Of a DNA stretch of 32,795 bases, positions 13,340-30,687 are shown piece by piece. Positions within the stretch are counted from its first letter, which is position 1. Each line of letters starts with the position of its first letter. Origin of the DNA: an uncultured Gemmatimonadota bacterium (GTDB taxonomy: Bacteria > Gemmatimonadota > Gemmatimonadetes > Gemmatimonadales > Gemmatimonadaceae); NCBI GenBank assembly GCA_902825965.1, contig CADEDA010000030.1:1-32795 (forward strand), given 5' to 3'. Under the pieces are notes generated by a model. That model did not search any database. It was not told the origin of the DNA and saw only the letters and a program-made list of their open reading frames with translations. Position numbers and translations under genes: made by a program.

Positions 13340-15001
13340 ATGCCCAGCACCCCCCGAGTGGTCCGCGCCGCGCGCGGCACGGCGATCAGCTGCAAGGGCT
13401 GGCAGCAGGAAGCCGCCCTGCGCATGCTGATGAACAACCTCGATCCCGACGTCGCGGAGCGACCCGAGGACCTGGTGGTGTACGGCGGCACGGGGAAGGC
13501 GGCACGCAACTGGGACGCGTTCGATGCCATCGTGCGCAGCCTGCGGGCGCTCGAGGACGACGAGACGCTGCTGGTGCAGAGCGGAAAGCCGGTGGCGGTG
13601 TTCCGGACGCACCGTCACGCGCCGCGTGTGCTGATCGCCAACTCCAACCTCGTCGGGCGTTTCGCCACCTGGGACCACTTCCGGGAGTTGGAGCGGCAGG
13701 GCCTCATGATGTACGGCCAGATGACGGCGGGCTCGTGGATCTACATCGGCTCGCAGGGCATCGTGCAGGGCACGTACGAGACCTTCGGGGCGCTCGCCCG
13801 CAAGCACTTCGACGGCACACTCGCCGGGCGCTTCGTGCTCACCGCCGGACTCGGCGGCATGGGCGGCGCGCAGCCGCTCGCCGCCACCATGAACGACGCC
13901 GCGATCCTCGGCGTGGAGGTGGACCCGGCGCGTATCGAGAAGCGCCTGCAGTCCGGGTACTGCGACCGCATGACGCGGGACGTCGACGAGGCGATGCGCT
14001 GGATCCGCGAGGCGCAGGCCGCGCGGCGCGGCCTGAGCGTGGGACTCGTGGGCAACGCCGCGGAGGTCCTGCCGCAGATGGTCGCGCGGGACATCATCCC
14101 GGATGTCGTCACCGACCAGACCTCCGCGCACGACATGCTGAACGGCTACGTGCCGCATCGCATGTCGTTGGCGGAGGCGGCACAACTGCGCGCGACGGAC
14201 CCCGCCGAGTACCTGCGGCGTTCCACGGCCAGCGCCGTCGCACACGTGAAGGCGATGCGGGCCATGCAGGACCGTGGCGCCATCGCGTTCGACTACGGCA
14301 ACAACATCCGCACCGTCGCGCTCGACGCGGGCGTAGCGGACGCGTTCAAGATCCCGGGCTTCGTACCCGAGTACGTGCGGCCGCTCTTCTGCGAGGGCAA
14401 GGGTCCCTTCCGCTGGGCGGCGCTCTCGGGTGATCCCAAGGACATCGCGCGCACGGATGCCTTGGTGCTGGAGATGTTCCCCGAGGATGCGCACCTGCGG
14501 CGCTGGATCACGATGGCCGGCGAACGCATCCATTTCCAGGGACTGCCGGCGCGCATCTGCTGGCTGGGGCAGGGCGCACGCGCGCGTTTCGGCGTCGCGC
14601 TCAACGACCTGGTCGCCCGCGGCGAGGTCTCGGCGCCCATCGTGATCGGGCGGGACCATCTCGACACCGGCAGCGTGGCGTCGCCGTTCCGCGAGACGGA
14701 GGCGATGCGGGACGGATCGGACGCGGTGGCGGACTGGGCCATCCTCAATGCGCTCCTCAACGTGGCCAGCGGTGCGAGCTGGGTCAGCTTCCATCACGGG
14801 GGCGGCGTGGGCATCGGCAACTCGCTCCACGCCGGTCAGGTGATCGTCGCCGACGGCACGCCCGAGATGCGCGAGCGCCTGCAGCGTGTGCTCACCAACG
14901 ATCCCGGGATCGGTGTCGCGCGGCACGCGGATGCCGGCTACGAGATCGCCGTCCGGACCGCGGCGCGCGAAGGCATCACGCTGCCCTCGCTCCAGGGCTG
15001 A
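13340..15001 (+). CDS. hutU: Urocanate hydratase (urocanase)
   Basis: This 553-residue cytosolic enzyme converts urocanate to 4-imidazolone-5-propionate using tightly bound NAD. The NAD site reads [18 protein letters not shown], followed by [12 protein letters not shown]. The conserved segments [30 protein letters not shown] and [11 protein letters not shown] are present. Cys407 in the last corresponds to the active-site cysteine near 410 in Pseudomonas urocanase. [17 protein letters not shown] completes the signature. The length fits the family (about 555), so the TGA at 14999-15001 is a normal end even though the same frame stays open into the radical SAM gene. The start ATG at 13340 lacks a Shine-Dalgarno sequence. 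Confidence 0.96.
14994..14997 (+). promoter_or_regulatory. AGGG ribosome-binding site that supports a CTG start for the radical SAM gene
   Basis: AGGG at the very end of hutU is 7 nt before CTG 15005, the only start-like codon in frame upstream of GTG 15086. The spacing is standard. It decides the start I chose for the radical SAM gene, although the motif is short and could occur by chance. Confidence 0.4.
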
Positions 15002-15004
15002 GTC

Positions 15005-15979
15005 CTGCTCAGCACCAAGTTCCGCCCCTGGCACCTCGTCCCGTTCAGCTGGAAGTACGCCCGGCTGAAATGGCAACGGCGGCCGGTGCTCGTGCACTTC
15101 GAGGTCACCATGCGTTGCAACGCGCGCTGCGCGTTCTGCGACTACTGGAAGACCTCGCCGGCGATGAAGGCGCAGGAGCTCGACAGCTTCGTCGACGCGG
15201 CGCGGGCCTTCGACCCGATGCTGATCACGTGGACCGGTGGCGAGCCGTTGCTCCGGAAGGACCTGGAGGGGCTGGTGGGCGCAGTGGACCGCGCGGTGCG
15301 GACCAAGTGGACGACGCTCATCACCCACGGCGGCATGCTCTCGCTGGAGCGGGCCCGGTCGCTCTGGGATGCCGGGATCGGACAGTTCTCGATCTCGCTC
15401 GACTACCTCGACGCGCGGCACGACGCCGCGCGCGGCATCCCGGGGCTGAGTGCGCGGATCCTCGCCAACGCCGAGGCGATCCGCCGGGCCGGCATGACGG
15501 TGCGGTTCAACACCGTGATCAAGGACGACAACCTCGACGACGTGATGCCGTTGGTGCGCGCCGCTGCGGCGATGCGGGTCGGGGTGAACCTCTCCGTGTA
15601 CACTGACTTCAAGAACGGCAACCGGGCGCACCTGCTGGGACCGGCGCACCTCGCCCGCCTCGAGGCCCTCGTGCAGGAACTGCTGGCATTCAAGCGGGGC
15701 CGGCGCGGGACCATCTCCAACTCCGACCACTACCTCGCGCAGATCCCGCGCTACGTGCGCGGCGAGCTGCGGGACCCGTGTCGGTCGGGGCAGGAGACCG
15801 TGCACATCGATCCCTACGGCGGCATCCGGCGCTGTCCCGACTTCCCCGTGGACGGCCATTGGTCGCAGTACGAGGGCTACGCGCCGATCAAGTGCGACCG
15901 CTGCTTCTACGCCTGCCGCGGCGAGGCGCAGGCGCCGCTGCGCCTCGATCGCTTCCTCGACCTCGTCGCCTCGCCGTGA
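15005..15979 (+). CDS. Radical SAM protein with SPASM/twitch-like cysteine tail, embedded in the Hut locus
   Basis: The radical SAM [4Fe-4S] motif is C38-x3-C42-x2-C45 (FEVTMRCNARCAFCDYWK), followed by WTGGEPLLRKDL, the SAM-binding GGEP motif. The C-terminus has five cysteines: C259 (PCRSGQETVHIDPYGGIRRC, ending at C277), then C297-x2-C300-x3-C304 (KCDRCFYACRGEA). These suggest at least one auxiliary Fe-S cluster as in SPASM/twitch enzymes, many of which modify peptides or act in cofactor or lipid pathways. The substrate is unknown. The first canonical start, GTG 15086, would leave only ten residues before the first cysteine. Codons from 15002 on are GC3-rich and read FRPWHLVPFSWKYARLKWQ, a basic and aromatic leader like that of related proteins. 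I therefore place the start at CTG 15005 (324 residues). It lies 3 nt after hutU and 37 nt before hutI. Confidence 0.82.
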   Translation: MLSTKFRPWHLVPFSWKYARLKWQRRPVLVHFEVTMRCNARCAFCDYWKTSPAMKAQELDSFVDAARAFDPMLITWTGGEPLLRKDLEGLVGAVDRAVRTKWTTLITHGGMLSLERARSLWDAGIGQFSISLDYLDARHDAARGIPGLSARILANAEAIRRAGMTVRFNTVIKDDNLDDVMPLVRAAAAMRVGVNLSVYTDFKNGNRAHLLGPAHLARLEALVQELLAFKRGRRGTISNSDHYLAQIPRYVRGELRDPCRSGQETVHIDPYGGIRRCPDFPVDGHWSQYEGYAPIKCDRCFYACRGEAQAPLRLDRFLDLVASP

Positions 15980-16016
15980 GTAAGTTGCGCCGCACCCTCC
16001 ACCCCGCGAGGTCCGC

Positions 16017-17282
16017 GTGAGCCGCGCCGCACTCCTGCTCCTGAACGCCGCCCAGGTGGTGACCTGCGCGGGTCCGGCGCGCGCGCGGCGTGGCGCGGAG
16101 CAGGGGGACGCGGCCGTCCGGGACCGCGTCGGCGTGGCCGTCGGGGCGGACGGACGGATCCTCGCGGTCGACAGCGACGCGGCGCTGCGCGCCGCGCATC
16201 CCGGTGTGCCCGAGCACGACTGCGTGCAGGGGGTACTCACACCCGGCTTCGTCGACTCGCACACGCACGCCCTCTTCGGCCGCGCGCGCTACGAGGAGCA
16301 GGAACTCCGCGCGGCCGGCGTGGGGTACATGGAGATCGCACGCCGCGGTGGCGGTATCCACGCGTCGGTGCGCGATCTGCGCGAGCGCAGTGCCGACGAC
16401 CTCGTGGCGCTCGCGACCGCCCGGCTCCGGCGCATCGCGGCCCACGGCACGACGACGCTCGAGGTGAAGTCCGGGTACGGCCTCTCGCTGGAGAGCGAAC
16501 TGCGCAGCCTCCGCGTGATCCGGCGACTCGCCGGAGAGTTGCCGCTGCGACTCGTGCCCACCTTCCTCGGGGCGCACGAGGTGCCGCTCGACTACCGCGA
16601 GGCGCCCCGGGACCGCGAGGCGTACATCGCGCTGGTCACGGGCGAGATGATCCCCGCAGTCGCCGCCGAAGGGCTCGCCCGGTTCGCCGACGTGTTCTGC
16701 GAGCCTGGGGTGTACTCCGCGGACGAGTCCCGTCGCATCCTCACCGCCGCGCGGGCGGCCGGCCTCGGGCTCAAGCTCCACGCCGACGAGCTCGAGAACG
16801 GCGCGGCGGCCGAACTGGCGGCAGAGCTCCGCGCCACGTCGGCGGACCATCTCGCGGCCATCTCCGAGGCCGGCATCCAGGCGCTCGCGGCGGCGGGCAC
16901 GGTCGCGACGCTGCTGCCGGGCACGATGCTGTTCCTCGGTCGGCCCAAGCAGGCGCCGGCGCGGGCGCTCGTGCAGGCCGGTGTCCCGGTGGCGCTCGCC
17001 TCGGACTTCAATCCGGGGACCAGTCCCACCGTCAGCCTCCCCCTGGTCCTGACACTCGGTGTGAGCCAACTGCGCTTGAGCGTCGCCGAGGCGTTCGTGG
17101 CCGCAACGGTCAATGGGGCCGCTGCGTTGGGACTGGCAGACGAGATCGGCCAGCTCGCCGCCGGATTCCAGGCCGACCTCGCCCTGTTCGACGTGCGGGA
17201 CCACCGCGAGATTCCCTACTGGTACGGCGACAATCGCTGCCTGCGGACCTGGGTCGGCGGGCGTCCCTGCGCCGGCGCCTGA
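16017..17282 (+). CDS. hutI: Imidazolonepropionase
   Basis: This 421-residue amidohydrolase-superfamily enzyme hydrolyses imidazolone-5-propionate to N-formimino-L-glutamate. The metal-binding HxH is H82-T-H84 in GFVDSHTHALF. KSGYGLSLESELRSLRVI, FLGAHEVP, LKLHADELENGAAAELAAEL (His255), SADH and ASDFNPGTSP are family motifs. A GTG start at 16017 has GAGG 5 nt upstream (16008-16011). The ATG-less N-terminus SRAALLLLNAAQVVTCAG is normal for HutI. A TAAGTT box at 15981-15986, just after the radical SAM stop, may be an internal promoter. No hutG, hutF or ftcD follows, so the last step must be encoded elsewhere. The 74-nt stretch to the next gene holds that gene's promoter. Confidence 0.95.
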   Translation: MSRAALLLLNAAQVVTCAGPARARRGAEQGDAAVRDRVGVAVGADGRILAVDSDAALRAAHPGVPEHDCVQGVLTPGFVDSHTHALFGRARYEEQELRAAGVGYMEIARRGGGIHASVRDLRERSADDLVALATARLRRIAAHGTTTLEVKSGYGLSLESELRSLRVIRRLAGELPLRLVPTFLGAHEVPLDYREAPRDREAYIALVTGEMIPAVAAEGLARFADVFCEPGVYSADESRRILTAARAAGLGLKLHADELENGAAAELAAELRATSADHLAAISEAGIQALAAAGTVATLLPGTMLFLGRPKQAPARALVQAGVPVALASDFNPGTSPTVSLPLVLTLGVSQLRLSVAEAFVAATVNGAAALGLADEIGQLAAGFQADLALFDVRDHREIPYWYGDNRCLRTWVGGRPCAGA

Positions 17283-29365: not shown

Positions 29366-29400
29366 GCAGCTCCTCCGTACGCGAGCACCCCATCAAGTCC

Positions 29401-30687
29401 CTGATCGAGCTGCAGGCGCCCCAAGAGCGCGCGATCCTCGTCGGTGCACCGATCAAGCGCAGCAACGCGCGGCATCATGTCACCGAACACCTCGAAGAGC
29501 TCGAGCGTCTCGCGGACACCGCGGGGGCGCTCGTCGTGGGCACGCTCACGCAACAGCTCGACCGCCCCGACCCCTCCACCTACATCGGGAAGGGCAAGGT
29601 CGATGAGCTGAAGACGATGCTCGCCGAGAAGGACGCGACCATGGTCATCTTCGACGACGAGCTCTCGCCCGCCCAGGGGAAGAACCTCGAGGGTGAGATC
29701 GGCAAGCGCGTGATCGACCGCGCGGAGCTCATCCTGGACATCTTCGCCGTGCGCGCCCGATCGGCGGAGGCACGCATGCAGGTGGAGCTCGCGCAGTTGG
29801 AGTACTCGCTGCCGCGGCTCACGCGCATGTGGACCCACCTCGAGAAGTTCCGGGGTGGCATCGGCGTGCGCGGACCCGGTGAGACGCAGCTCGAGACGGA
29901 CCGTCGCCTCGTCGGTCACCGCATCAAGCTGCTCAAGGAACGGCTGGCGGAGGTGACGAAGGCGCGCCAGCAGCAGCGGGCGAGCCGCAGCGGCAGCTTC
30001 CGCGCCTCGCTCGTCGGCTACACGAACGCCGGCAAGAGCTCCATCCTGCGCGGCATCTCCGGTGCCTCGGAGGTCTTCGTCGAGGACCGCCTCTTCGCCA
30101 CCCTCGATCCGCTCACGCGCGAGGTCGACCTCGGCGACCACCAGTCCGTGTTGCTCACCGACACCGTGGGCTTCATCCGCAAGCTGCCCCACCACCTCGT
30201 GGCCAGCTTCCGCGCGACGCTCGAGGAGGTGCAGGAGGCCGACCTGCTGCTGCACGTCATCGACGCCAGCCATCCGACCTGGGAGGAGCAGCGACTGGTC
30301 GTGGACGAGGTCCTGGGGGAGCTGGGGGTGCAGCACCTGCCCATGCGGTACGTGTTCAACAAGGTCGATCGCCTGACGCCGGAGCACCGCGAGGCACTGG
30401 AGTCGCGGATCAACAACCTCGCGCCAGGGTCCATCTTCACTTCGGCGGCGAGCGCGGAGGGATTGGCCCCACTGCGCGACCTCCTGCGGCAGGCCCTGCG
30501 GGAGCGCCGTCCGGAGGTGGAGTTGCTGCTGCCGCTCACCGACGGGCGGTTGCTGGCCGAAGCGCATCGCATGGGCGAGGTGCTGTCCTCGGACACCGAC
30601 GAGGACGCCGGGATGCTGCGCCTGCGTGGCCGCTTCGACGCGGCAGCGCTGGCGAAGCTGGAGCGCGACGGGGCCGAACGCCGGTGA
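29401..30687 (+). CDS. hflX: HflX ribosome-associated GTPase, start codon non-canonical or uncertain
   Basis: HflX binds the 50S subunit and splits stalled or heat-damaged ribosomes. The N-terminal domain (RAILVGAPIKRSNARHHVTE, YIGKGKVDEL, DDELSPAQGKNLE, VIDRAELILDIFAVRA) is followed by the glycine-rich GGIGVRGPGETQLETDRR. The GTPase domain has G1 GYTNAGKSS (206-214), G3 DTVGFIRKLPHHLVASFRAT and G4 NKVD. The conserved N-terminus is in frame well before the first canonical codon (GTG 29536), which would cut off 45 conserved residues. Upstream to the stop at 29335-29337 only CTG (29356, 29401) and ATC-type codons occur. CTG 29401 gives 428 residues, equal to E. coli HflX (426), so I use it with reserve. 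The stop overlaps the next gene (GTGA at 30684-30687). Confidence 0.88.
   Translation: MIELQAPQERAILVGAPIKRSNARHHVTEHLEELERLADTAGALVVGTLTQQLDRPDPSTYIGKGKVDELKTMLAEKDATMVIFDDELSPAQGKNLEGEIGKRVIDRAELILDIFAVRARSAEARMQVELAQLEYSLPRLTRMWTHLEKFRGGIGVRGPGETQLETDRRLVGHRIKLLKERLAEVTKARQQQRASRSGSFRASLVGYTNAGKSSILRGISGASEVFVEDRLFATLDPLTREVDLGDHQSVLLTDTVGFIRKLPHHLVASFRATLEEVQEADLLLHVIDASHPTWEEQRLVVDEVLGELGVQHLPMRYVFNKVDRLTPEHREALESRINNLAPGSIFTSAASAEGLAPLRDLLRQALRERRPEVELLLPLTDGRLLAEAHRMGEVLSSDTDEDAGMLRLRGRFDAAALAKLERDGAERR

Follow-up and report, generated by a model that had tools for sequence, protein, structure and literature searches.

The gene infC is the textbook case of an AUU/AUC start codon with autoregulation by IF3. 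As reported in PMC4611024, IF3 discriminates against codons other than AUG, GUG and UUG. CUG is reported to give 0.86% of AUG output and to make up 0.024% of bacterial starts (PMC11497404), and a start-codon survey gives switches to CUG for 2 of 61,358 AUG, 1 of 5,080 GUG and 1 of 2,468 UUG starts (PMC5622118). In Streptomyces, the ribosome binding site (RBS) of sigR is described as extensive and conserved, and its GTC start as kept in 32 of 34 species (PMC5472188). A review of translational coupling describes models in which terminating ribosomes or 30S subunits feed the next start (PMC12548453).

Bacterial CUG starts are already known and are rare. The putative CTG start of a radical SAM protein gene described here, obtained by comparison of homologous loci, is a new and well-supported instance.

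Methods

The window is the whole stretch of DNA that was analysed (32,795 nucleotides, contig CADEDA010000030.1) from an uncultured Gemmatimonadaceae bacterium. The source genome (G000) is a draft of 4.07 Mb in 73 contigs. Homologues of the radical SAM protein were searched for in 61 genomes, including its own, with a match defined as an E value below 1e-40; 33 of the 61 genomes matched. N-termini were codon-aligned for 30 loci first and three loci were added later, giving 33 with this locus included. Codons and alignment columns are numbered from GTC 15002.

A codon-usage scan was run on 833 kb of this genome (659 ORFs without masked bases) using a model seeded from the genes of the window; the scan is blind to CTG genes that have a canonical codon close by. 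The start column of infC was used as a positive control for the start-column method.

Locus and gene order

A radical SAM gene without a named function lies between hutU and hutI (window 13340-17282; Table 1). The product belongs to the radical SAM superfamily, scoring over the curated PF04055 cut-off and carrying the CxxxCxxC motif. Among the best 25 of 45 matches to named NCBIfam radical SAM families (PTO1314 family, MoaA and others), none reached its cut-off; the highest score was 85.3 bits, for a model whose cut-off is 306.05.

At the E value used, the gene was found in all 17 genomes of the genus (its own included) and in 16 of 20 from the family's other genera. The 24 genomes from two other families of the order gave no match. 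An upstream hutU on the same strand was present at 27 of 30 loci and at all three loci added later, and hutI was downstream at 29 of 30. The loci where hutU was not seen are two at contig ends and L026, where the gene sits elsewhere and hutI was likewise not seen. Because of this steady place between hutU and hutI, the gene order suggests a role linked to histidine breakdown. A literature search on Gemmatimonad radical SAM proteins and histidine found no title on such a gene among the papers listed.

Table 1 Features of the window and the trpA start elsewhere in the same genome
Feature	Position	Strand	Basis or remark
hutU, urocanate hydratase	13340..15001	+	TIGR01228, 939.2 bits (cut-off 375)
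AGGG, Shine-Dalgarno-like, within last hutU codons	14994..14997	+	also in closest relative (L003)
hutU stop TGA	14999..15001	+	in frame with radical SAM gene
Radical SAM protein gene, 324 aa	15005..15979	+	PF04055, 72.9 bits (cut-off 29.5)
Putative CTG start codon of radical SAM gene	15005..15007	+	aligned codon NTG in 33/33 loci
Conserved N-terminal leader, LSTKFRPWHLVPFSWKYARLKWQRRP	15008..15085	+	alignment of 33 loci and synonymous changes
GTG, canonical start codon nearest in frame, taken as a valine codon	15086..15088	+	rejected as start
CxxxCxxC radical SAM motif, CNARCAFC	15116..15139	+	read from sequence
hutI, imidazolonepropionase, downstream neighbour	16017..17282	+	TIGR01224, 408.8 bits (cut-off 298.15)
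hflX, inferred ATC start 29392-29394	29392..30687	+	TIGR03156, 453.8 bits (cut-off 216.75)
trpA, putative CTG start	L049:17561-17563 (G000:C12)		CTGA overlap with previous stop

Start codon of the radical SAM gene

After the hutU TGA the same frame continues with GTC CTG CTC AGC ACC AAG TTC CGC CCC TGG. A first-pass annotation of the window had described this continuation as 28 strongly GC-ending codons free of any ATG, GTG or TTG before GTG 15086, with that GTG only ten residues from the first cysteine. These points were all confirmed: 26 of the 28 codons (15002-15085) end in G or C; within the first 38 codons the canonical starts in frame are GTG (codons 29 and 31) and ATG (codon 37); and it is ten codons from GTG 15086 to the codon of the first Cys (15116). 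An ATG at 15070 is out of frame with the gene.

The same annotation had proposed CTG 15005 as the likely start, and the alignment supports it. Across the 33 loci the aligned codon is ATG in 14, GTG in 11, TTG in 6 and CTG in 2, so that the first base varies (A 14, G 11, T 6, C 2) while the second is T and the third G at every locus. The residue right after this column is Leu in 33 of 33 loci, and the eight columns before it (codons -6 to 1) show no conservation. A free first base, fixed T and G, a conserved Leu next and unconserved sequence upstream are, as read from the alignment, the signature of a start codon. The CTG is thereby homologous to the start codon of the relatives, as in CUG-initiated bacterial genes, and it has no in-frame canonical alternative nearby: the hutU stop is two codons upstream and the next canonical codon comes 27 codons after the CTG, within the conserved protein. 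The gene thus appears to start at CTG 15005, where the conserved N-terminus begins; from the hutU stop up to this conserved part there is no canonical start.

Initiation could instead be placed at GTC 15002, directly after the stop, and a GTC start is documented for Streptomyces sigR (PMC5472188). That column is unconserved and the closest relative has CCG there, which makes the chance of a GTC start close to negligible.

The two CTG carriers are this genome and its closest relative among the genomes searched, G016, a separate draft assembly with 89% protein identity; the other 31 loci have ATG, GTG or TTG in the column. In a draft of 73 contigs the C at 15005 might be an assembly error, or the gene might be decaying with its CTG unused. 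Sequencing error is unlikely because the CTG is present in both genomes, and the surrounding codons have diverged between them: eight synonymous differences in the leader alone mark the two as separate sequences. The reading frame is unbroken throughout the gene, and the codon differences from the closest relative number 101 synonymous and 37 non-synonymous. Error or decay is accordingly exceedingly improbable, and the CTG would have replaced GTG or TTG as the start codon in an ancestor shared by the two species.

The N-terminal leader

The first-pass annotation had expected homologues to share FRPWxL...YARLKW before the first Cys if the leader were real. They do so, in varied form, in all 33 loci including this one, with Pro at column 9 in 33 of 33, Trp at column 10 in 29 of 33 and Lys-Tyr at columns 18-19 in 33 of 33. 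The peptide stretch FRPWHLVPFSWK falls upstream of GTG 15086. Codons 2-29 differ from those of the closest relative by eight synonymous and two non-synonymous changes, and by this pattern the leader is judged to be protein-coding. In a predicted structure it contains a helix (residues 8-23) before the first strand (residues 30-35); the mean pLDDT is 58.9 and little weight is given to this model.

A start at GTG 15086 with the upstream codons untranslated is what an ORF listing limited to ATG, GTG and TTG gave, as this GTG is the first in-frame canonical start. It is very unlikely here. The leader is conserved protein in 33 loci with start-codon behaviour at column 2, its changes relative to the closest relative are mostly synonymous, and a protein started at the GTG would begin a mere ten residues before the first Cys. 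The GTG column itself is Val in 30 of 33 loci with G as third base in only 16 of 33, and with the third base free, the codon is therefore read as valine. In the 33 loci the VLVHFEV column, at which homologues would have begun had the shorter protein been right, lacks start behaviour. With the start placed at CTG 15005, gene callers restricted to ATG, GTG and TTG would lose 27 residues of a conserved enzyme.

Shine-Dalgarno sequence and coupling to hutU

As had been noted at first pass, AGGG lies seven bases before the CTG, and it does so in both CTG species. The best Shine-Dalgarno (SD) duplex, AGGGCUGA (-3.9), was obtained against the 16S tail from two genus members and is a weak pairing. The tail reads GGATCACCTCCTTA in G004 and G011, and two members of the genus have the anti-SD core CCTCC in their 16S; the 16S gene is partial in this genome and was not found in G016. 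The radical SAM gene does not always come with SD pairing, as 9 of 30 loci have none at all.

The hutU stop and the CTG are separated by 3 nt, a distance as short as that of coupled gene pairs, in which stop and start lie very close or overlap. Among the 27 loci with hutU upstream, the gap is at most 7 nt or an overlap in 12 and at least 18 nt in 15 (the 18-nt gap of L018 was taken from the alignment by eye). ATG is the start at 2 of the 12 tight pairs and at 9 of the 15 loose ones (Fisher p 0.047); adding the three later loci, with gaps read by eye, gives 2 of 14 and 10 of 16 (p 0.011). These figures are suggestive of non-ATG starts accompanying tight gaps, in a test that ignores the kinship of these related species.

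hutU and the radical SAM gene share a frame here and at 10 more of the 27 loci, as readthrough of the hutU TGA into a HutU-radical SAM fusion would need. Such a fusion is extremely unlikely because the frames differ at the remaining 16 of 27 loci; in addition, the codons between the hutU stop and the start are unconserved, and the 31 loci outside the CTG pair have ATG, GTG or TTG in the start column.

Initiation at CTG 15005 is in all likelihood the best explanation, with fMet placed on CUG, ribosomes supplied from hutU and a low output. In this scheme fMet-tRNA would initiate on CUG 15005, and a ribosome or 30S subunit that had just terminated at the hutU TGA would be the main supply of the start, with the AGGG holding it nearby. 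Re-use of ribosomes ending hutU, which the first-pass annotation had offered as an alternative to a CTG start, agrees with the 3-nt gap and would add to the CTG start instead of competing with it. Expression of the radical SAM gene could be very low because CUG yields so small a fraction of AUG output, and less of its product than of HutU would be made, CUG being a weak start and one of the codons that IF3 discriminates against. The IF3 gene is present in this genome. Aragorn found six tRNAs in 833 kb of the genome, with no initiator tRNA among them, and an unusual initiator tRNA is conceivable.

Genome scan and trpA

The top three genes of the scan for coding sequence upstream of every canonical start were hflX, trpA and the hut radical SAM gene; a fourth ORF above a score of 8 has a plausible ATG. 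Control scans at the same score gave three candidate cases in G032 (same family, 400 kb, 306 ORFs) and no case in G011 (same genus, 400 kb, 329 ORFs). At a score of 5 this genome does not stand out: it has 13 of 659 ORFs flagged, G011 has 3 of 329 and G032 has 10 of 306. Comparison yielded one CTG start (trpA) in the 632 ORFs outside the window, where 0.15 would be expected from the published 0.024%; at least one would occur by chance with a probability of 0.14. A genome-wide excess of starts of this kind was not borne out, either in these 632 ORFs or in the scan against G011 and G032.

trpA was matched in 12 of 17 genus genomes, and its CTG overlaps the previous stop as CTGA at seven genus loci. 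In G000, G016, G009, G014 and G005 no canonical codon lies between the CTGA and the conserved core; G006 and G015 have CTGA with a GTG three codons later. That same later GTG is found in G007, G002, G004 and G011, and G010 has ATG. Judged on this alignment, the CTG at the overlap appears to be the best trpA start at 5 of 12 genus loci.

Another CTGA overlap may serve as a start in mutY (L105:17294-17296; G000:C2:117294). This gene was excluded from the count, its N-terminus being too variable among relatives.

Start columns of hflX and infC

HflX is a ribosome-splitting GTPase. Its gene in the window has no canonical start between the upstream stop and the conserved N-terminus. In the genus, the start column reads ATC at 7 loci, ATT at 1, ATG at 4 and GTG at 4 (16 of 17 loci, one being without the N-terminus). 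It reads ATC at 18, ATT at 3, ATA at 1, GTG at 4 and ATG at 1 of 27 loci from other genera of the family, and ATC at 3, ATT at 2, ACG at 1 and TTG at 2 of eight further family loci. Codons of the ATC/ATT/ATA type are thus present at 8 of the 16 loci in the genus and at 27 of the 35 from other genera, or 35 of the 51 family loci read, a count that leaves out 14 and a further six family matches.

At 8 of the 22 ATC/ATT/ATA loci from other genera, an in-frame stop lies at most five codons before the start column. At some loci a canonical codon is found further upstream in the open frame at a varying position (e.g. G014, G015, G016, G065, G067, G068 and G091), and a longer HflX may be made at such loci. 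Similar codons were also seen at loci from three further families of the class, where TTG or ATG in some cases follows within a few codons, and six loci of another class have TTG near the start, five of them also with ATG; four loci could not be anchored. Literature searches on HflX start codons (including AUU, IF3 and translational regulation) and on Gemmatimonad start codons found no title on the hflX start or on non-canonical starts, respectively, among the papers listed, and no report of an ATC/ATT/ATA-type start on hflX is known to us. The hflX start is a more interesting lead than the CTG start of the radical SAM gene.

Of the 15 family loci parsed for infC, 14 have ATC or ATT in the start column and the other has ATG; six further family loci were unparsed and 16 loci of two other families are without an assigned start. 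In this genome (L277, G000:C6), whose copy is one of those six, infC has ATC with AGGAG seven bases upstream, read by eye, which is consistent with the IF3 autoregulation known elsewhere.

Discussion

By comparison alone, a well-supported putative CUG start emerges for a bacterial gene. The results also indicate a lineage with further CUG or AUC/AUU/AUA starts, among them a widely shared one in hflX. As a tentative proposal, which we hold to be somewhat doubtful, the Gemmatimonadetes may keep a set of genes under starts that IF3 discriminates against as a regulatory layer, with coupled genes drifting to CUG. Much of the family would then have AUC/AUU/AUA starts on infC and hflX, with the same type of hflX start in parts of the class, and scarcity of IF3 would raise the supply of HflX. 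Drift to CUG in the hut radical SAM gene and in trpA would come about because termination-reinitiation, on this proposal, tolerates it. IF3-dependent control of a ribosome-splitting factor would become directly testable through the hflX start.

Like the cases in the CUG survey, the present one would be a switch from a canonical codon to CUG between close relatives (PMC5622118). It differs from them in that the CTG is common to two species and in that a second gene of the genus, trpA, has CTG at a stop-start overlap. With infC it shares a start outside ATG, GTG and TTG, in the class that IF3 discriminates against (PMC5472188, PMC4611024). In contrast to infC, the codon is CTG and not AUU/AUC, the gene belongs to a metabolic operon and does not encode a translation factor, the CTG occurs in two species only, and no autoregulation would be expected. 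What it would share with Streptomyces sigR is a non-canonical start within a pair of genes that are transcribed together and coupled in translation (PMC5472188). Unlike sigR, the radical SAM gene is the downstream one of its pair, its SD sequence is short, and the CTG is found at 2 of 33 loci.
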